Source: Scatophagus argus (taxonomy: Eukaryota > Chordata > Actinopteri > Scatophagidae). Taken from it: DNA of 64,000 nucleotides. Every line of letters starts with the position of its first letter. The stretch's first letter is position 1. Under the pieces are notes generated by a model. That model was not told the DNA's origin. It saw only the letters and a list, made by a program, of their open reading frames with translations, and ran no database searches. The DNA is taken from contig NC_058499.1 of the NCBI RefSeq assembly GCF_020382885.2, forward strand, positions 9,719,872 to 9,783,871, given 5' to 3'. Below are positions 19,162 through 48,800 of the stretch, piece by piece. Both the position numbers and the translations under genes were made by a program.

Positions 19162-22100
19162 CTAGAGACACTCTGACAGCACCTCGTGTCTGGGTAAAGA
19201 CGGATAGATCATGGGCGCGCAGGTACACTCATTGTGGTCGTGTTGGGTAAGTTGGATCTTCAGCTTCTCCACTTCATAGTTATGGAGGTACTCCTGGACC
19301 AGGTAGCGCTCTCTCTTTATTCGAGCCCTCACGTCAGAGGGAACATCAGGAATCATCCAGGCCACGAAGAACTTGACCAGGAACACGACATGCTGCGGGG
19401 GAAGAAGACACAACAGGTGAGTTTTACCTCGAAGCTAAGAGCTGCAGAAGTGAAGTCTGCATGGACTTGTGTTACATCTGAATAATGTGTGTGTGTGGGA
19501 GAGCGGGAGTTACTATTAATGTCACAGTCAGCTACTGCCCAGTAAGTGTTGGTGGTGCTGGTGAAGGCACTGCGGCCCAGTTTTACCTCCATGATGATGA
19601 TGAAGGCCAACTTGGCAGCCAGAATGTGCCAGAACTGCATAGTGTGGGAGTACTGCTTCTCGTGGCCAGGAGGGTAGCGGTAATCACGATACCTGCAAAG
19701 AAGGAACATGTCAGAAATTTTCTGCAGATTTTTATACCAACTTTGATTCAAGATTGTTCAGTGTTGAAAAGAAATAATAAGGGATTATATTGCAGTTTTC
19801 ATAAAAGTGTAATTATTATTAACCACCATCTGAAGTTAAATAGTGATTAAAGTAATCTAGTTGTTCAGTTAAGATACTTAGAGGTTTTACTACATTATAA
19901 TTCATAGCTAAAAAAAAAAAAAAAAAAAAATAAAAAAATCAAGTTATCATTTGCAAAGTGCTGCACCAGGAGCACACATTACCACGACCAGACATTTAAT
20001 TTACCAGTGGTGAAAAGTAACTTAACACATTTGTTCAAATAATTTACTGAAGTGGTACTTGTGTTTTACTATTTTCATCATTTTATACTCCAACTGTGTC
20101 TTAAAGGGATACGCCGTGCTTTTTATTCTACTTAACTTATTCAACAGCTTAAGTCACTTTTTATTTACATACAGCGCATATAAATGTATATTTTATGATA
20201 CATCACTGTGGACTAAAGGCCGTGCACACCTATGCAGGTGTAGTCAACTGCTGCTGCTGCTCATTTGACCCACTCTTGTTTGAATTGTTCAAAACTGAAA
20301 GTTACTTGTAAGAATTTTTTATTTTAAAATTATATTTACTTCTCAATCACAGTCCCAGGTTAACGTAGAAATCACTCTGTTTTTCTCTCTTTCTTTTTAC
20401 CATCACACCCACCTGCAGGTAGTGATGGTGCTGTTGAACCAGAATGGATTCTCCCCATCCTCAGGCCTGTTGGCCAGAGGGATCTCAGAGATATTAAACA
20501 CCGACAGGCTGTTGTTTATGTAGCCTTTCATATTCATCTCGCCGTCCGGCTGGTAGGCGTACATGTACACGAGCCGAGGGATCATATCAGAGGTGAAAGC
20601 CACAATAAACGCCTGGAAAGCAGAGAGAGTGATGTGGTTTAAACTAGGGATAAATCAGGGTGGATAATCTGTGCGTAGAAAGCACACAGATGTAGTCCAG
20701 GACTTACATTTGTGACAACAGAGAGTATGGCCATCCCATTGAGGATTTCCTGCCAGGCCCCGATGCTGTGGGCTTTTGCTGCCACAGGACGTCTGAACTG
20801 AGTGGTGAGCTTCCAGGAATCCACTCTAACCTCTATGACGTTATTGAAAAGCGCCAACAGGGGCGCCAGGGGGAAGGAGGCGACGAACAGCGTGATGAAA
20901 CCAAACTGGATCACTGGGACACAGAGAGGAGGGAGGTCAACAGACAGTAGAATGAAAACAGCACCATCTGCAGGATCTCAGAAGACACTGCGTCTATCCA
21001 TTTATCACTTCTAAAATCAGATGGATGAGGATGAGTTTATTTTTCTCCCAGTATCATAAATACTTAATCATCTGTGTTTGTTTATGTACCGCAACTTTGC
21101 TGCAGTATTTTAACAGGTAATCGCGAATATTTGTTTCAGTTTTGCTGACATAGTTGTTCCTGAATTCCTCTCTCTCTCTGCGTACTGGACTGACTTTGTG
21201 CTGAGTGCTTACCCATTTCCAGATACTCGTAGAAGAGGCCCAGCTGCCCAAAGCCTTGCAGGTCGTGGTCCTGCTCCCAGCGGCTGTACAGACTCTCTGG
21301 ATGGCTTCGTGCCTTCCTGCTGCCCCACCAGTTCATCAGCCACCTGAAAGGCCACAAGGGGGCGATAGAGACATAGTTCACATACATTACTTGTGTAGAC
21401 GTTACCTTTCTAAATCCTCTTGTGGGCTATCTGACAATGAAAACACAAATACATATCTAAGCAGACATGAGTCTAAGCATTGATCAGCAGTGATATCAAA
21501 ATACAGAATCAGGTCCCACCCATGGTTGTTGTATCTATGAATTATGTGATTCAGCTTCAAATACCCCTCTGTAACTTTTCTGTATGCAGATGAAGTGTGC
21601 TTTGGATGGGTCAGTTCAGCTGAAGTACTCACGGGACCAGAGCCTCCTGGATGTTTCCCCACACCTGTTTACCAGTCATCACTATCACCAGCTGGGTGGT
21701 CAACTCGATCAAACAGCCACCAGGGTCACACTGAACATAAACAGGTTAAAAGAGACGAGGGATGGATGGGAAGGACGCAAACTTTAACTCCAGCTGAGGT
21801 AACAGCATTAACCTAACACAATGTCATGAAGTTATGAATGGTACCTCTTCATTCCTCAGTTTGCTCCACTTGCCAAACATATAAGCATAATCTCCAGGAT
21901 AACCGACAAACTTGCCCTTAAAGAAAGCCACGTAGAAGCAGGAGGAGTAATAGTTGACAAACTGGAAGAGGAACATCTTGACTGTCAGTTTGTTCTCATA
22001 CTCCAGATGGGTCTTGGGAATTTCTGCCAGATTTAAAAAAAAAATAAAAAATCACCAAACAACACATCTTCACATTTCAACAATTTCAAGGATCATTATC

Positions 22101-25100
22101 AAATACATAATGGATAAATAAAGACACAGAAATGGCATAATCTGGGATCGCTCTCTTGCTCTGACCCTCACCCATGTCAGTGATCCAAACAGCCACTCTC
22201 TCATACATGAGGTTGAGGATCATGATGATTACAAAGTTGATACAGGAGGCGGTGACAGAGGTGGCCAGCTGTGGTGTGATGAAAGGGCCAACCACCTGCA
22301 GTTGGGTGGTGGGACTGTCCTTCATGATGCTGGCGAAGGCTGCGTATACCGCCAGGCGGTACGCTATCACCCCAATGATGCAGGCAATGATCAATGAGAT
22401 CTTCAGGACAGAGACAACAGTGACAACATGAAAGACAACTACAGCAAGTCACAAGACAAAAGTACAGTGAGTACCACACAGCAGTTGTGATGCACGTACA
22501 AACACCAAAACACATACGGACGCACGACTGAAGCACGATGTTAGGAGTAAGCGTCATGCCTGAAGTGTCCACACATGCTCCATAAAAGGAAATCTACCAT
22601 CGTCTTCCCATTTGCTTATTCACATTTACAGGATTTTACACACAAGAGAACACAGCGGTAAAACAAAATCTGGACCATCTGCATAAAGCCAAAAAACCCT
22701 CATCCTAAATGGGCTTTTAAAATTTAGAGTAAATGCGTAAACATTACATTTACATTCTGACTGTTTAAGTGTTGATGAGAGCTCAGTTTCTTAGAAGCTT
22801 TATACATAAAGCACCGTTTATATATTAGCAGTGATGATGAACAAAAAAACATATAAAACGGGAGAACGGGTGAAAGATGAAAGCAAATTAGATTCACCAA
22901 CTATACCAGAGATAAAACGCTCACCCAGAACAGGACGGTGGCTCCAGACAGTAACGTGCGTGCACACTTGCTTGTTATGGGTAAGTATGGCTCCATTTCC
23001 TAAATCATAAGCAAGCAAAGCAGGGACATGGAAGTCAGTCACCCTTTGTTACACCCTGAAAAGACACCTCTAAAAAGGCCAGGTTGCTTTAATTACCCCT
23101 GGTCTCAGATGCGAGGCAGAGCGAGGTCACCTAATCAGAGCTCTTTTGGTGTTGACATTTAAGTCCAATTCTTTCATCTGGCAATCTCCTGGTGAAGCCA
23201 TGCTTTTGCAAAAGTCTCTTTCAAGATGCTGATCTGTCAGAGGAGCAGTAATGTGGTGCCTCTGAGTCTTTTCAGAAATGACAGTGTTATCCACACCAAC
23301 TACACCACACCAAGACTTCTTCCTCACCAATTTGGCATTCCACGTTAAGTACTACCCTTACCCAGAGTACCACGGTGGCCCAGCACAGAAGTAATTTCCC
23401 CATTAGATCTGTAGTAGTCCTGTCAAGTACCCACTCCATTTCCTAAAGACGGGTGGGAAGTGGTCAAGGCGAATTACAGGACTCATTTCAGAAATCACTA
23501 TCGCGTTTCTCGAAAGCACAGATGCTGTAAAGTGTTAATTGTCTTATACCCGTATACCTGTCTGGTAAAGTGTCAAAGCTACACAGTCCTAAAGCTGTAC
23601 ATTAGAATAGTGGTTCCAATCTTGGGCTCCATGCTCCCCCTCCTCAGTGGGGCACCAAAGGCCACAGGGGTTAAGTTTGGTCTGCTCAGAGGTTGTCAAA
23701 TGTTAACTAAGAGCATAATAACACATTTAATGGGTAATTTCTGTTTTTAGCTCCTCCTCGTTTTCCCTGAAACCAGAGCATCACTGTGTTATGAATGACT
23801 GGGGCTCAGCTTTTCTAAGAGATAAGTAAGGTAGAGTTAGTATTTCATGAGCACACAAACACCTGAGTGATGCGATTCATCTTGCGGTTGTGGCACTTGG
23901 TCTCATACTCCGGCCGAAGCTGGAGCTGCTGTTGCTCCTCCTCAAAGTCGACCAGATCCCACTCGTACTCAAGACGAGCCTGCCGTCTCTTCCAGAACTC
24001 CAGAAACAGCGTCACTGCAGAACACACAACCCCCAAACTTCATTTTTCAGTGCTTTGACCCCCATTTACCGCCATTGTGTTGGTGTGGTGGCAGAAGGGG
24101 TGAAAGATCTCAGCAGCTCAACAGATGACAAATTAGAAACTGTTTTTTGTATTGTAAGAAAATGTGCTCTTTAGTTACCATTGATTTTAAATGACTAATA
24201 ACTGTTTATCAGCTTCCACTAGGTGGTGCACTGGGTTAGAAAACACAAAATGCAGAGAGCACAAAAGTTTACTCACCCCAAATCCCCATAAATATGGCAA
24301 AAAACACCGTCCCCACATTGTCAAACAGGTGTGATTGCTGCAAGAAGAACATGTTCGAGAAATAGTGAGATAGTGAACATGAACGTGAATCACGATCAGT
24401 GAAGACAACTCAGGCCTAAAGCCAGAATGTCTCACCCATGAGGAGTTGCATGTCGAGTTGAGCTTCCAGTAGCCACATTTCTTGTCACACAGCGGGCACA
24501 TGACGATGTTGCCCCCAATTTCTTCACTACAGATTTCTTTACTGTAGGGAAACGACAGTAACAGAAATGTGTTAATGAAAAGATATCTAAAAGATGGACA
24601 AAATAAACTAGTGTTGTTAGTAAAAACAAAACAAAAAACAAATCACCTCCATTCGTTGTCGTCGTAGGTGAGGAATCCATAGATGAAACAAATTGTCCCC
24701 ACTATTGCAGCGAACAACAGCATCTCAGTGTAGAAACCCAACCACGCAAAATAAATACCTATCTTTTCCCCATAATACTTCCTGTTGAAGGGAAAAACAG
24801 CATATTTGCTTTACTTCCTTCTGGTGCTGGACTGATGTTGAGTAAAGTCACATCAGGAAGACTACTTTTGTTTTCAAGCCGTACCTTATGAGATTGAGGG
24901 GCTGCTCCTTGTAGAAACAGAGGAACTTGGCCCAGTGTTTGTAGAGGTTGTACCTCTCACTTTCGCAGTTAGGGTCCTTTGATTTCATCCAGTATCTACA
25001 CTGCACGCACACAGAAGCACACAGTTCACTACCATATCCACTGCATTATTGAAACATTATCCATCCATGCAATGCAACGTCCAACACTGTCTGCTACAGG

Positions 25101-27460
25101 ATGTAACCATTGGAAAGCAACAAGAGAACATTCTGCTGAAGGCTCGTCAGCTTTATCCAATGACAAGAAAGTGTCAAAAGTTAACCAAAAGAGGCTCACA
25201 TCATGCAGGGGGAAAGCAGCAGTGTAGGTGCCGTTGTTGAGTAACCTCTTGATTCCCTTCTTGTCTTTGTCTCCACATTTATCCCTTAGGTACGAACAAC
25301 GTGAAAGGATGTAGTAGACCTGGGCAGACATAATGTTTTGTTATTCAGAGAAATTAGAATTAGGATAAAAACAGAATTGTAAGTTGCTTTGCAGCAATGT
25401 AAGATGATTCAATTTCTCACAATAGATATAACCTACTAAATTTAAAACTTGGTCATTTAAAGCAGGCTTTTCAAAAATGTAACTCAGTTGTAGCCACGAT
25501 TGAGCCTACACACAGAACTGCATGATCTGAACACCAGAGGAATGTGTTCACTTGAGGGTCACAAACAAGTTAAGACAATTGTGGCCAAAACATCCTTACT
25601 ATCCTGTTGCGAGTAGAAGGGGGGAAGAAGGTCTCTTTGTTGTCGATGAGGAAGAAGTCAGACTTGCTCTTGTTGAAGGGAGCTGTGAAATAGTCTGGCT
25701 CAGGGTGCATGATGTGCTCCGGCAGACGGAAAGGGGTGGACAACCAGTTCATGGGCATCTCGCTGTTGTCAGGGATGTCGTTGACCTTGAATGGGACCTT
25801 TATCTTCAGCACGTCTGCGTAGGTGGCCAACACTTCCCAGGGAGCGTGGATCTTCACAAAGTAAGTCTTTCCATCTTCTGACTCCTGATGACAGTGAGAC
25901 AGGTGTCACAGTATAATGATTGCTGGCTATTGATAACACATGAAAACACATGTGATATGATATGCAGTTCACATACATAAATCTTCATTCCCTTTTACAC
26001 TGGACATTATCAAATCCATAACAGGACTTACTGATTTATCTTCTGTCTCCAGCTCCAGGCCGACGTCCTCGAGGTTGGCCTCATACACCTTCCTCCTCTC
26101 CTTGATAAGAAAACAGAGCACAAATCCATATATTTATTAGTTTGACTTACTGTACAACAATATTAAGTACACACAAAATGTCTGAAGAATCAATATAAAC
26201 CAAAGCTTGAAATAAAAGAGCCTGAACAGTGGGAAAAATATTATTCAAAAAACACTGAGCAGCATATATTTAAGAATATGATGTACAATGTGTTTCACAC
26301 TGTATGATATAAAAGTCATGATATACAACCCATATAGTGTTCAATACTGCAAATGTATTGTAAGTACTTCAAGATAAACTGTAAATAAAGTGTGTGAAGT
26401 TAACAAAATACCCGCTTCCACAAAACTGAAGTTAATGTGAGCTGGAATACAAAATGTTCAGAGTGCACATCTACACAAACAAAGCAAAATAAAGGGAGGA
26501 TGGAGTCAGAGTGAGGGTGGCAGGTGTAAAAGTGGTACGAAACAAGTTTAAACCAGTGTGGACAACGTCCCTTAGCTCAGAACTTTAAATAGTACCAATC
26601 GCTGTGTACAAACGGGTAGTGAAAGTTAACTGGTGGGAGTGCAGTAGTATGAAATGACGCGAACACTTGTGACTTGGAATAAGGTTTAGTGCTTTCAGAA
26701 CTGGATTTAAAAAATGCCTTGTTAGAGCTGTAATTTACTGTCACATTTTACAGCCCTTTAGGATAACACACAGGAACTGGCCTCTTGTTTGCCTTTCCAT
26801 GTACAGTGGAAAAAAAAACGTGTTAGTTCCTGACCAGGCCAGAAGTCTGCGTGCTGACTCACTAACAAGGCCGTGACAAACTGCCTCATACCCGAGGGCT
26901 GCTGACACAGAGATGTGAAGGCTAACAGCTTAGTACCAAACACTAAAGTTTTTCAGCACTCCAGAGCTAATAAAAGATACTATTGTAGTTACAACAAAGA
27001 TGAGCAGCACCAGCATACTTCAAAGTTGATTTACATAAGAAAACAGGTTTGTAAGCCTATCTCTAGAAGTGACCTTCTGAGGAAATTCCTTGAGGATTAC
27101 CAATACAAGCTGAGAATAACTTTATCTAACTTCATCAGTGTTGTGGTATTTATGGTATGCCACTGTCACAAAATGAGAATATCCTGTATGAATCTGTTCT
27201 TATCAAGAAGTGGACAAACGTGAGCTGTTCTGCTTTGGTTGATACAGTAAGATTTCAAGATTTTCACCAGCAGCCGCTTAACTTGTTTATAGAAGACAAA
27301 AATTTTGTTTCTTACTTGTTTTCTCTCGCCATCTTTATCATCGACGTAGGACAGGACAAAGTCAATCCTGCGCACGCCGTCACGGAAGAACACAGAGTCT
27401 TTACTGTGCTGTTGTTTGTCAATCTATGAAGAGACAGAACAGAGGTCACAAGATTTAAAC

Positions 27461-41600: not shown

Positions 41601-42849
41601 CCTCATAAGTGTAATTATTGTAAACACCAAGGGACTAAAACACACCCACATGAAAAAAAAATGAATGTATGTTGTACACATAAACATTTTATAAGCTTTT
41701 TGTGATGATATGTGACCATACAGGGTTTCTCTCTATGTGTTGCTTGACAAAAGTCCATTTTTGTACCGATTATACGTGAAACGCTACACAGCATAGTTAC
41801 ACAAATGTTGATTTGGTACCACATACTGTTCTTAAACATATCCCTTATACAATATAACTTGTATACATTGTGTGTAACATATATATTTTTGTACGGTATG
41901 CACAGAAAGCAGACACAGAACTTTAAGTATAAGGTTGTATATTGTCATTTTCTCCTTCTGTGTGTGTGTTAACGTGTGTGTTCTTGTATCAGAAACTACT
42001 TCGGGGAGAAGGTGGCCTTGTACTACCTGTGGCTAGGCTGGTACACATACCTGCTCATCCCACCTGCCGTCATTGGGGTCGTAGTTTTTCTTTATGGCCT
42101 TGCCTTCTTTAACAGCTCGCCCCTCATGTAAGTTCCTCCACGACTCCACAGTATCTGTGTCATAACAGATCAATCACACTGGGATAAATGAAGCCATTTC
42201 TGTGTTGTAGAAAGGAGGTTTGTGAGGCCGACACGGTCATGTGTCCGCTTTGTGACACGCGATGCAAAGTGTGGAAGCTCTCAGACACCTGCACATATGC
42301 CAAGGTACAGCAGTGAGTTTACAAAAGACAGCTGAACGTTTGCCTGCCTGTTTGGGCTCATCGCTGTGTTTTATTTTTCTACTCACAGGTGAACTTGCTG
42401 TTTGATAATAATGGCACAGTGCTCTTTGCGATGTTCATGGCAGTATGGGGTGAGTTGTGCATTTCTAAATAACATGATAATAATAATAATGATTCTTGTG
42501 TTGATATTCAATATTCAGATCCCCGTTTAAGATGAATTATCACAGGTAAAGCCCATGCAGCAGGTACAGTTACTGGCTGGCTGGAAATCAGGGTGCTGAA
42601 GTCTTACAAATGAGCCTTTTATCTGCCTCAGATTTTTTTATACAACTGCCTGGATGTTTTTCATGCTCACTCAGACATGCACTGCCAAGTAGATGCCACA
42701 TCACTGAGAGAACCTACTCGTCCTGGCTACTCTCGTCATATTCAGCCCCGGCCATCTGGCTCATGGGGGTGGTCAAGCAGTCATCTATAAGAACATATTC
42801 ATGTTCTTTCACTGCCTTACTCCTCTGCTTTCAGTACCTCCATGTTTTT

Positions 42850-42887
<38 letters not shown>

Positions 42888-45800
42888 AATGCTTGCAATC
42901 TGCAGTCAGATCTCTTTTCATGTCAAATTCATACCCGCTGTAGGAAACAAGGATTTGGGCAAGATGGTGATTTACTTATGCAAGGTTTATTAGCACAGCT
43001 GTGGGAAGACAGTTAACAAGAACAGCTGATGCAGTGATTACATGAGAGGAAGTGTGAGAGGGTGGGAGGAGATAAAGAAAGAGAAAGAGTGCATCATTGA
43101 TAGGAAAAAATGAACTGTTCCCAGCTGATTGGAAGTCCCTTTAAAATACAAAGGCTGGAGTTCACATCATACAGTTTACTGTCAGCTTGGCAGACCACAG
43201 AAGTAGGGATCAGGTCTTGAGTTTTCTTTCTTTTTTTTTTTCTCTAATTTGTATTTTTAAAGCTTTTGTTCACTAAACTTAACCCAGGCTGTCTCCAAAG
43301 TTGATGTCCCAAAACATAAACATCACAACCAGCATTGTAACTGTATGTTGTTTAGCCCAGTAGATTTTGTTACTTTCACTTTGTTAGTCATTATAAGCAA
43401 CCGATATTTGGCAAAATTAAGACTTTTTTCACAGACTGTTAAACCATGATAGGAGGCATGTTGATATTTTCATTTCACCGCTACCGAAATCCCAAAAGTG
43501 GTAAAGGTTATTAGAAACCTGATGTGTGTTTTCAAAAGCTGTCAGCCTTGTTTGTTGTTCAGTCCTCATATTGCTGTTCAGGTAAATTTGTGAACTCATG
43601 TGAATCCCTGGTCTTCACAGCAACACTGTTTTTGGAGTTCTGGAAGAGACATCGAGCTTCCTATGTGTGTGAATGGAAAGTGTCTGATTGGTGTGAGGAG
43701 GAGGTATGATCAGTTTTAAGCATTATTTTTTTTATACATCATTTTTGTTTCATTTCAGTAAAAGCACATCAGGGATTATTGTGGAATTTGTGTCTGTTTT
43801 TTCTGTCATGTTTACCTTTAGGAGGAGTTGATCCTGGAAATACTGAACAATGTCAACTGTGAACCAAAACAGTATAAGCACTCCTATCTGCGTAGTACTC
43901 TGGTTTTGATCTGTGTCACAGCGATGGTGGGTGTCATTTTTACACTCTTCACATAGAATATTTATTGGACTTGTACAGAGATCAGCAAGTTGAAGTTGGG
44001 AAGGTTCAAGTTTAGGCGTGTGCAGCAGTCGAGGTTAGCATTAGGTGCTGCAAAGAAAGATGTTGTTAATGTAGGCTCTCACAGGCAGACTAATACAAAT
44101 GAGCGTTTTGGTGTTTCCACAGATATTGGTGATTATCGGCCTGACACTTGCCTTGGTGGTGTTTAGGGCGATTGCAGCAGTGCTCTTGGCTGAGGGATCA
44201 TGGGAGTTTTTGAGCAACTACTCGAACAGCGGCGCAATGATGCTGGGGGCCGTCCTCCATTACCTTGTCATCACTGTCATGACACGGGTATGCAGATCTC
44301 TAAATGTGCATCTGTGTTTCCTGTTTCTGTTGTCATCTGTGACTCTGACCTCGCCTTTGTTTTTCCAGGTTAACAGGATTGTAGCCATGAAGCTCTGTGA
44401 AATAGGTATGTTTACTTTACCTATTGTAATTATTTGACATTTTTATATGGCACAAAATTTGAAAGGGGTGCTGTCACATTATCATCCCACTCATGTTACC
44501 GGGCAGTATTAAATGGTACCTTTAAAATATCCTGAAATATTTCCTGAAAGTTATATCCTGAAAGTTTCTGGATAAGAAAATGTTGAATGAGCAGATATTT
44601 GAACAGTCAAAAATGGGTTTGCGTGGTGGGCTGTGAAAATACAAAAGAGACAGCAGGTAGTCAGACAGGAAGCAGGTCAGACACACAGATAACAAACTGA
44701 TGACTGGCTGAACATTCAGAAAGGAGGGTTGCCTGAGAGAAACTTGAAACTTTCTAAAACCCTCTGGCCTAAATCTAGCATCCGTCCTTACAGTCCTTAC
44801 AATGTTTTTTGTTTTTTTTTTCTAAAAAAAGCTGTGATGGTTCAGTGCTGACTCACTGAGAAACTGGAAAGTGCTGGACTGCATTCTCAAGAAACTTTTA
44901 TTCATTTTCTGTGCACTTCCTCCCATTGTTACGCTGTACATATCAGCATTCTCATGCTAAAAACAATGTCAAGGAAACCCCAATTTTTTAAATTTTTTTT
45001 TTTAATTTGTTAAACTGCCAGGACAAGTGTAGATATACACAGCAGGAAGCTCAGTGTCTTTATTAAGAAAAGGAAGGATTATGAACAAACAGCTTTCTGG
45101 GCTCTGGGTGGACATTGGAACTGGGCCACCATATACATTAACTAGGGAAATCAGCAGCAGTTGTAAAGGTACGTGATAGGTCAGGTGATATTCAAAGGAG
45201 GGAAAATCAATGAGGCCATTTAGTGGGAACATGAGGAAGGGATTTGAATGTTTTAGAACATACGGTGCATACGGTGCACTAGGAGTGGAAAGAGAGAGAC
45301 AGAGAGAAAAGCAGAGAGAAAAGCTGCAAGAATCAGCATGAGAACATGGGCTATAATGAGAGGTCTTTCATTTAAATCTGTTGGACCTGTCATGTCATCA
45401 TAAGACAAATCTGAAAGTTTGCAAAATGACTAACAGGAGTGAAGAAACTTTCTAAGAATGTTAGAGCTCCTCAAACCTCTAAAAACTACCCAAATGAAGC
45501 AATCTGAAAAGGGAACCTCACACTTCAGAATGCTTACAATGCAGAAACAAGTGAGGGGGAGGGCTCATGTGTAGCCATATCTTCAGTTTAACAGGTCATA
45601 AGCCAAAAAGGTTTGTGAGCTGGTGATGTAGGGCCCCTCTACATTTCATTTGGTTCGGATGTGCATTAGTGAGCCATTCAAGTTCAGCTGTGATGTGTTT
45701 GTAAACCCTGCCTTTGGAAAATGAAAAAAAAAAAACCCAAAAAAACATTAACTATAGATCACTTGATCACCCAAACACTTATGAATGTGTGCATATGATT

Positions 45801-48800
45801 ATCCCAAGTAATAAAATGTAAATAGATATAATAATGTAATGGATGTAAGATTACAATTCTGTAACTCACCCTCTCAAGTATGTGAGATTGTGCCATCCCT
45901 TGACCAAACAATGAACTGCATGAACACTGACCTGAAGTCTGTTTTACCAGAGAAAACAAGATCATTTGCTGCCACAGAGAAGAGCTTCACCGTCAAGATG
46001 TTCACCTTTCAGTTTTTCACCTATTTCTCGTCCCTCTTCTATGTAGCCTTTTTTCTTGGCAGGTAAGATTTAGTGGACTCTTTCAAGGCTGGGCAATTCA
46101 ATATTCACTCAGCTCTGGACTCCAGATGCACTCAACAAATTGTCTTAACCTACGGAACTTTACATTAATGTACAAATAAAAGAACTTATTGTCCTTACCT
46201 AACACCCAGTGTCCTAACCTGATGAACTTGTGAGACTAATAATGACATGTTTGTAACATACCTGACAGGATAAATGGCCATCCTGGTGGTTATGTCCGTA
46301 TTGCAGGAAAATGGAGGCTAGAGGAGGTAAGTAACATAAATATGTTTCCTATTTATAATGACTTAGCTTAGTGTCCATTTTCAAGTCAAATTGCTGGTTA
46401 AATTCAGGTATTGCATCTGATTGCTCTACAAACATTTCACTTTCCCATGTGCAGTGTCATCCTAGTGGATGTCTTACCGACCTCTTCATCCAAATGGCGA
46501 TCATAATGGTACTCAAGCAAACCATCAGCAATGTCTTTGAGTTCACTGGCCCGTACGTATGCATCAGATTTCTGATTATATTCTGCACATGTGCACTGTA
46601 TAATCCACTTTACTTACGTTGGGTCTCTGCCTCATGTTTGCAACAGCTGGCTCTGCAGGTGGTTGAAGAAAAAAAGGACCAAGAAGCTCCAGAGGAAATG
46701 TGGGCACTGCTTCCTGAAGGATGATGCAGAGCCCAAACATGGAGCTGAACTCTGTGATAACTGCAAGCTTCGAAACTGGCTCAACAACTACCGTCTCAGT
46801 GATGTCGACTCCTTCAGCCTGTTCAATGAGTTTCTTGAGATGGGTGTGTAATCTGCTGAATGCTTTAACAACAAAAAACATTAGACTCTGGACAAATACT
46901 GGTCTGGTTTTTATCAAATAATATTTTTCTTTGCTCTCTCCTAAGTGATCCAATTCAGCTTTACCACTATATTTGTGGCAGCATTTCCTCTTGCTCCTTT
47001 GCTGGCTCTCATTAACAATGTCATTGAGATACGCCTGGATGCCATTAAAATGGTCACTCTGGAGCGCAGACTGATTCCCAAGAAAACCAACGATATTGGT
47101 AAGAATGAATTTGTTAACTCTTAGTTGGGGTCAATAAACTGTTGTTTGTCCTAACTTTAGGTTAGTAAAATTCTCCTCACATGGGATGCATGTTGTTTCT
47201 TCAGGTGTGTGGATAGATGTGCTGGAGGCAATTGGCGTCTTAGCTGTCATTGCGAATGGGCTGGTCATTGGTGTATCTTCAGACTTCATCCCTCGATTGG
47301 TGTACCTTTACCGCTATGGCCCATGCGCCAACGGCACAGCAACAGATACTGAGTAAGAATGTGCTCTCTTCTTGAAAATGTTGATGTTCTGTCATACTGT
47401 TTGTGACACTCACTTTTAAATAAGTTCTTCTGCTTTCTCAAGCTGCATGGTAGGCTACATCAGCAACACTCTCTCCATTGCGCGAATGGGTGACGAGGAA
47501 TTTAACAACGAGTTTTCATATGATCAGATGAACATTCCAGGTGACGTGAATGTCACTTACTGCAGGTTTGTTCTCATTTAATCTTATTTGTCTTAAGCAT
47601 TTGAAGAGTTATTTAAAGGTCCAGTGTGGACAACTGGTGGCTCCTAACAGTGTGGGTGCAGACTGCAATCATCTGGACACCCCTCTTTGCACCCTACTCT
47701 ATGATAGCCCCTTGAAACTCAAAAGGCCCTCTCTAGAGCCAGTGTTTGGTTTGTCCATTCTGGGCTACTGTATAAACATGGAAGTGCAACATGGTGGAAG
47801 GAGGAACCACTCCCTCTATAGATACAACCAGGCAAATTCTGAGGTGATTGGAATCAGAATCAGAATTGTCTTTATTGCCATGTAAGTGAAGAGGTTTCCC
47901 ATTACTAGGAATTTGTCGCGGTGATTGGTGCATACATAGAATGTAAGAACGAGTAACATATAATAATAGAACAAAATAAAATAGAATAAGGTAAAACAAA
48001 ATAAAATAGGAGAAGATGAAAGCACAACAATCATTTGTTTCGGGTGATTATACACTAATGAAAACATAAATGTACATAAACATAAAATATTATACTCCAT
48101 TTCTTCCCCTAAATCCTACACACTGTACCTTTAACTGTCATGACTTTTAGGTTAGAAGAAACTCGAATCAAAACATGTAGCTAATTTGAGTAACAACAGA
48201 ATAGAAAGTAGTCATACTTGTCACCACCAGCATTTAAAAACTGTTCAGTGTTTACAGCATTCTGTTATTATCCTGTTAGTGTTGCTCTGTTGCCGTTCCT
48301 GAAAGGATTGTGCCACCTCAGTAAATAAAAGTGCTCCATAGATGAAGATTAAATTCATTTCAAAAATAGATTGGCATCACCGCAGCATCTAACCACAATT
48401 ATCCACTCTGTGTGCTATTTAAATAACACAAGGGAGATAACATCTGGCTCTTGTTTGTTTTTGCAGCTACAAAGACTACAGGAGCAATAAGGACTACAGT
48501 TTTACCCCACAGTTCTGGCTAATTTTAGCTGTGCGCTTTGCATTTGTCATCCTGTTTGAGGTGAGCTTTAACCACAACCAAGCAAGAAACCACTAACCAC
48601 CTATTCTTGCACTGGTTTGTTTGTAACAACACAACAGCAAAATCCCTAAATCTTCCCACCGCTTAATTTGTCTATTTTAAAACTCAGGATTTCATACATA
48701 ACAGTGAGAAGGGCTACAACAAAGTCAGGAAGTGTTATTTTTAATTAAAGTATATTTTGACAGATTATAAAAATTAACATTACGTTTCTCCCATCTTTCC

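Follow-up and report, generated by a model that had tools for sequence, protein, structure and literature searches.

A candidate alternative exon at the start of membrane helix TM3 in one of two ano5 genes of Scatophagus argus

Two similar, neighbouring stretches of an anoctamin gene raise the question of whether the entrance to membrane helix TM3 is encoded twice and, if so, whether one version would replace the other, be joined to it, or lie unused. The window (the whole stretch of DNA that was analysed, 64,000 nucleotides, G000:C7:9719872-9783871) was examined together with the 570.7-Mb genome to which it belongs.

The ano5 locus and its exon pair

The minus-strand gene at ~27.4-19.2 kb of the window matched the Pfam family Anoctamin (PF04547), with ANO6 as its nearest solved relative, and was identified from its sequence as ano5 (ANO5/6-type Anoctamin domain, beside slc17a6). 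In human, too, ano5 and slc17a6 are linked genes. A second ano5 was found on contig C1: the placed exons of the C7 gene match this copy and a slc17a6-type transporter gene follows ano5 in both blocks, which are probably a duplicate pair from the teleost genome duplication. Genome-wide, the 85 Pfam Anoctamin matches were counted as 17 loci. The features of the C7 gene are as follows (positions of the window):

19165..27423, minus strand: ano5 gene body, from an exon-by-exon match to the C1 paralogue, by which the 5' end was not located
23863..24014, minus strand: ano5 exon ahead of the pair, 152 nt, ending ...RITQ in phase 0
23362..23442, minus strand: exon A, candidate alternative exon, 81 nt, 27 residues
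23000..23361, minus strand: intron between A and B, 362 nt, with a branch-like site 36 nt before exon B
22925..22999, minus strand: exon B, conserved TM3-start exon, 75 nt, 25 residues
22172..22400, minus strand: next ano5 exon, 229 nt, encoding the rest of TM3

A preliminary description had placed the two exons about 360 bases apart, and its placement proved exact to the base (362 nt apart). Read on the minus strand, exon A is preceded by ...CCCGTCTTTAG and followed downstream by GTAAGGGTAG, and exon B is preceded by ...TTATGATTTAG and followed downstream by GTGAGCGTTT. Reading A and B bore out the shared features that had been described: both exons start with GAAATGGAG, have GCCACCGT in common and end in CTCTGG and TTCTGG, respectively. 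With ATCACTCAG closing the exon before the pair at 23863 and ATCTCATTG opening the one after it at 22400, the junctions are phase 0; the exon boundaries thus agree with the earlier claim of phase 0 on A, B and both flanking exons. Since 81 and 75 are both divisible by three, inclusion of A and B together or skipping of both keeps the frame, and the claim that either exon, or both, preserves it held as well. Like tandem duplicated exons, A and B are adjacent homologous exons of one gene, in the same frame (phase 0/0) and of similar length (81 and 75 nt).

Other genes of the region were recorded alongside. An intronless 358-aa rhodopsin-type receptor (PF00001; 15861-16937, minus strand) lies between ano5 and slc17a6; its nearest solved relative was P2Y4 (E 8.9e-37), and it had no match in the compared 50 kb of the C1 block. 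A second anoctamin gene occupies 41997-48560 on the plus strand, where six exon-like stretches match ano5 peptides (39-66% identity); the Pfam Anoctamin matches to it lie at G000:C7:9761859-9767007. A further anoctamin is situated ~50 kb ahead of the window start (C7:9662474-9669903), making three anoctamin genes inside ~105 kb.

Likeness of the exons and strength of the splice sites

The exons were aligned end to end, and the likeness exceeded that of shuffled sequences for DNA (score 12.0 against a shuffle mean of -12.9, z 6.1, reached in 0/5,000 shuffles) and for protein (score 33 against -16.8, z 6.3, 0/5,000 shuffles). Identity amounted to 36 of the 75 codon-aligned bases, or 52 matches in the 70 aligned columns of a gapped DNA alignment. 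For ranking, all AG..GT segments of 60-100 nt that do not overlap exon B were compared with exon B (10,467 minus-strand segments, counting exon A itself, and 10,662 plus-strand ones). Of these ~21,000 segments, exon A ranked first for DNA (12.0), the best segment other than variants of exon A scoring 7.0, and first for protein (33) among the open in-frame segments (983 and 1,179, respectively), where the best non-variant among those listed scored 13.

Without anchoring, the likeness is faint: tblastn did not detect it (E = 1.3), and the local score of 33 falls within the 26-38 obtained as best chance matches of 14 other exons tried. It is the anchoring at both splice sites that makes the likeness convincing. 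In a local-score test against 1,000 shuffles, the score of the exons was reached by 2, compared with 829 and 116 for the 200-nt upstream and downstream flanks, and 620 and 590 for the 60-nt upstream and downstream flanks. The introns beside A and B being unlike, the duplication is old rather than recent; the exons being alike where the flanks are not, the exon has been better preserved than its surroundings. On these alignments, exon A is a genuine, old, in-frame duplicate of the TM3-start exon in one ano5 copy, and the tandem, diverged, in-frame pair that had been proposed at this place stands up to both the shuffles (0/5,000) and the ranking (first).

Splice-site matrices drew on the ano5 and slc17a6 genes (two copies each), which gave 48 acceptors and 46 donors. 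The exons behind them were 24 hand-picked matches; one donor could not be located, and a few of the automatically set boundaries may be inexact. The exons left out include 24570-24430, 20651-20409, 19422-19165, 9908-9780 and 6999-6673. Among real donors, 63% score no higher than the donor of exon A (7.9), and among real acceptors, 29% score no higher than its acceptor (6.0). Both sites of exon A fall inside the range of real sites and are usable; the preliminary description had called them good. Exon B, scored with itself left out, reached 7.1 (donor) and 7.9 (acceptor). On the minus strand, four open phase-0 AG..GT pairs (50-250 nt, A included) had both sites at least as strong as those of exon A. 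A decoy acceptor at 23055 (score 11.3) is the best between the flanking exons and looks stronger than that of exon A; it lies within one of the two arms of a perfect 10-nt inverted pair (23055-23065, 23266-23275), which may be due to chance.

Predicted consequences for the protein

Whichever of the two exons is present would encode the last part of the TM2-TM3 loop along with the first turns of TM3. The hydropathy peak of TM3 is similar in the two forms (2.75 with exon A, 2.68 with exon B); exon A is more hydrophobic near the membrane, has a net charge of -2 versus 0 and is two residues longer. Against Pfam Anoctamin, the exon B form scored 105.1 bits, the exon A form 92.5, the form with both exons 87.4 and that with neither 80.5. 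All ten shuffled controls of exon A fell below the exon A form (81.4-91.9 bits versus 92.5); the five that keep the polar/nonpolar pattern scored 86.4-91.9, and one of them nearly equals exon A (91.9 versus 92.5). Compared with mouse ANO6, the score was 152.9 bits with exon B and 145.3 with exon A. When both exons are present, hydropathy stays below 1.6 in the windows that cover exon A, so that an additional membrane helix is not predicted.

Position -15, counted ungapped from the exon 3' end, is occupied by K or R in 6/6 other copies compared and by L in exon A. At position -12, exon A shares a basic residue with the four ANO5/ANO6-type copies among these six, and the two ano1/ano2-like ones have none. 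In mouse ANO1, KLTWRDR starts at 476 and thereby puts D481-R482 at -16/-15. According to PMC6704070, neutralization of ANO1 R482 brings faster desensitization and an impaired effect of added PIP2, and D481A likewise speeds desensitization; a review locates ANO1 PIP2 sites in the TM2-3 loop and TM3-5 (PMC8640346). With leucine at the position of this PIP2-site arginine, the clearest prediction for the exon A form is changed phosphoinositide control.

Competing readings of exon A

The best explanation, to which we would give an even chance, is that the TM3-start exon of the C7 ano5 was duplicated in tandem long ago and that the copy, exon A, has been kept as an alternative exon that replaces B. 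Splicing of 23863 to 23442 and of 23362 to 22400 would exchange exon B for A; the product would have the same expected topology with a different cytosolic entrance to TM3, would carry leucine instead of a basic residue at the place that corresponds to ANO1 R482, and might by analogy be altered in its regulation by PIP2 or lipids. We infer that exon A is used in RNA and that it substitutes for B, substitution fitting better than insertion. Counted in favour were the A/B homology, the unlike flanks, the open frame and splice sites, the Pfam score and the kept hydropathy of TM3, together with the enrichment of tandem duplicated exon substitutions in ion-transport and membrane genes given in PMC9741552. 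Counted against were the C1 copy without the exon, the higher scores of exon B (Pfam, ANO6), the flat codon signal and the want of an exclusion device.

The pair resembles SNAP25 exon 5 and OGDH 4a/4b in being adjacent homologous internal exons of similar length and the same frame that alter one restricted part of the protein; it differs from these mutually exclusive exons in that its alternative splicing is putative. The distant-branch-point device described for OGDH (PMC7969005) was not found in the ano5 pair, and neither was a short distance from donor to branch point. In the literature on ano5 and anoctamin splicing and on teleost exon duplication, none of the titles and abstract openings listed reports such an exon, and the main texts of two exon catalogues (PMC9741552, PMC5740500) do not contain 'ano5' or 'anoctamin'.

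Somewhat unlikely, in our judgement, is that exon A is an unused remnant, an old duplicate intact by luck and included rarely or never. Drift was simulated with exon B unconstrained (20,000 runs, indels being assumed at 2% per site): AG, GT, the frame and freedom from stops were all retained in 7.6, 3.6, 1.7 and 0.7% of runs at 20, 30, 40 and 50% substitution, respectively. The simulation favours retention of exon A and is short of proof, since exons that look intact are those that attract attention; survival in up to 7.6% of runs counts on the side of a remnant. So do the large divergence from B in codon alignment, the absence of the exon from the C1 copy and the codon composition of exon A, which gave no coding signal (its score is matched by 36% of the 1,776 open windows) and is uninformative. 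A remnant fits poorly with exons that are alike end to end between flanks that are not, with a donor better than most real donors, and with the best score of all segments ranked.

The paralogues bear on the age of the arrangement. The C1 ano5 has the same exon structure, the same neighbour and the same conserved TM3-start exon (22/25 residues identical to B); it differs in that a 115-nt intron at the equivalent place, before the TM3-start exon, leaves the conserved exon alone, with no second copy. The exon A peptide had one match in the genome, itself. The second-copy scan took in three of the 17 loci (C1 ano5, the ano6-like gene and C7:25.3M) and found no second TM3-start exon: among the segments listed, the known exon and overlaps aside, no open AG..GT segment scored above 15 for protein, versus 33 for exon A. 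Locus L016 was covered in the paralogue reading for its TM3-start exon. Phase 0/0 TM3-start exons were read in C1 ano5 (25 residues), the ano6-like gene (26) and two ano1/ano2-like genes (23 and 25), and their occurrence in several anoctamin types indicates that the exon slot is old.

Insertion, by which A would be optionally added before B as a cassette and lengthen the TM2-TM3 loop by 27 residues, like segment d of ANO1, is unlikely and nevertheless a live rival, because segment d seems to occupy the equivalent intron. ANO1/TMEM16A segments c and d resemble exon A as alternative in-frame exons in the TM2-TM3 loop, where they change gating (PMC3170211, PMC8480199); they are optional insertions, whereas exon A duplicates the TM3-start exon itself. 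Segment d is exon 15, of 26 residues (PMC3170211). Its placement, which is by exon count, is inferred from two points: exon 14 (24 residues, with S462) directly precedes exon 15, and the TM3-start exon has its end near residue 496. Exon A and segment d are likened by location, not by sequence. The EAVK position used in the count is one that we assume.

Insertion would also suit the finding that A is in frame with B, that the double form is predicted to gain no membrane helix, and that nothing was found that prevents A-B joining. The distance from the donor of A to the branch-like site before B is ~326 nt rather than <~50 nt, as steric exclusion would have it, the branch sites being assigned by motif alone (22 and 36 nt before exons A and B). 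The AG-free zones measure 37 and 42 nt, and the latter, before B, is not the long zone of the distant-branch-point type. Exclusion guarded by the frame does not apply, as joining A to B keeps the frame. With regard to competing RNA structures, the introns hold two 10-nt inverted pairs and the fold of the A-B intron is ordinary against shuffles (z -0.01), as seen in this single genome. In the three introns around the pair (22401-23862), GCATG, which we take to be an Rbfox-type motif, occurs 1, 1 and 2 times versus 0.4, 0.3 and 0.4 expected by base shuffles (four in total versus ~1.1), counts too few to weigh.

In human mutually exclusive exon clusters, as surveyed in PMC5740500, a donor-branch-point distance <50 is found in 9% and a U2/U12 conflict in 0.79%; because only 9% have a short distance, the ~326 nt are weak evidence against exclusion. 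Numerous similar neighbouring exons are, by the same account, not mutually exclusive (PMC5740500). Since no cis device was found, the choice between the putative A and B forms would by default fall to trans-acting splicing regulators. Against insertion stand the copying of B by A, including the end that leads into TM3, and the Pfam score of the double form, which is below that of the exon A form (87.4 versus 92.5).

That exon A is an intron stretch resembling B by chance, or a fragment of a mobile element, is hardly credible. The weak unanchored local similarity would suit chance, but the anchored one was reached by no shuffle and ranked first of its segments. The 601-base stretch searched against the genome had no matches other than itself and the conserved exon of C1, which disfavours a mobile-element origin of exon A.

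Returning to replacement of B by A, a bolder form of this reading, which we regard as speculative and doubtful, is that a fish lineage evolved a switchable entrance to TM3 of ano5 in one of two duplicate genes: an exon without the basic PIP2-site residue would yield a scramblase form that escapes phosphoinositide control or is subject to it in another way. Loss of ANO5 function has been linked to muscular dystrophy and gain of function to bone disease (PMC8835819). If exon A is unused, it is an ordinary relic. If it is used, the C7 ano5 could make two forms of its membrane protein, and the natural alternative entrance to a membrane helix would be a ready-made experiment on TM3 and on the control of an anoctamin by PIP2.
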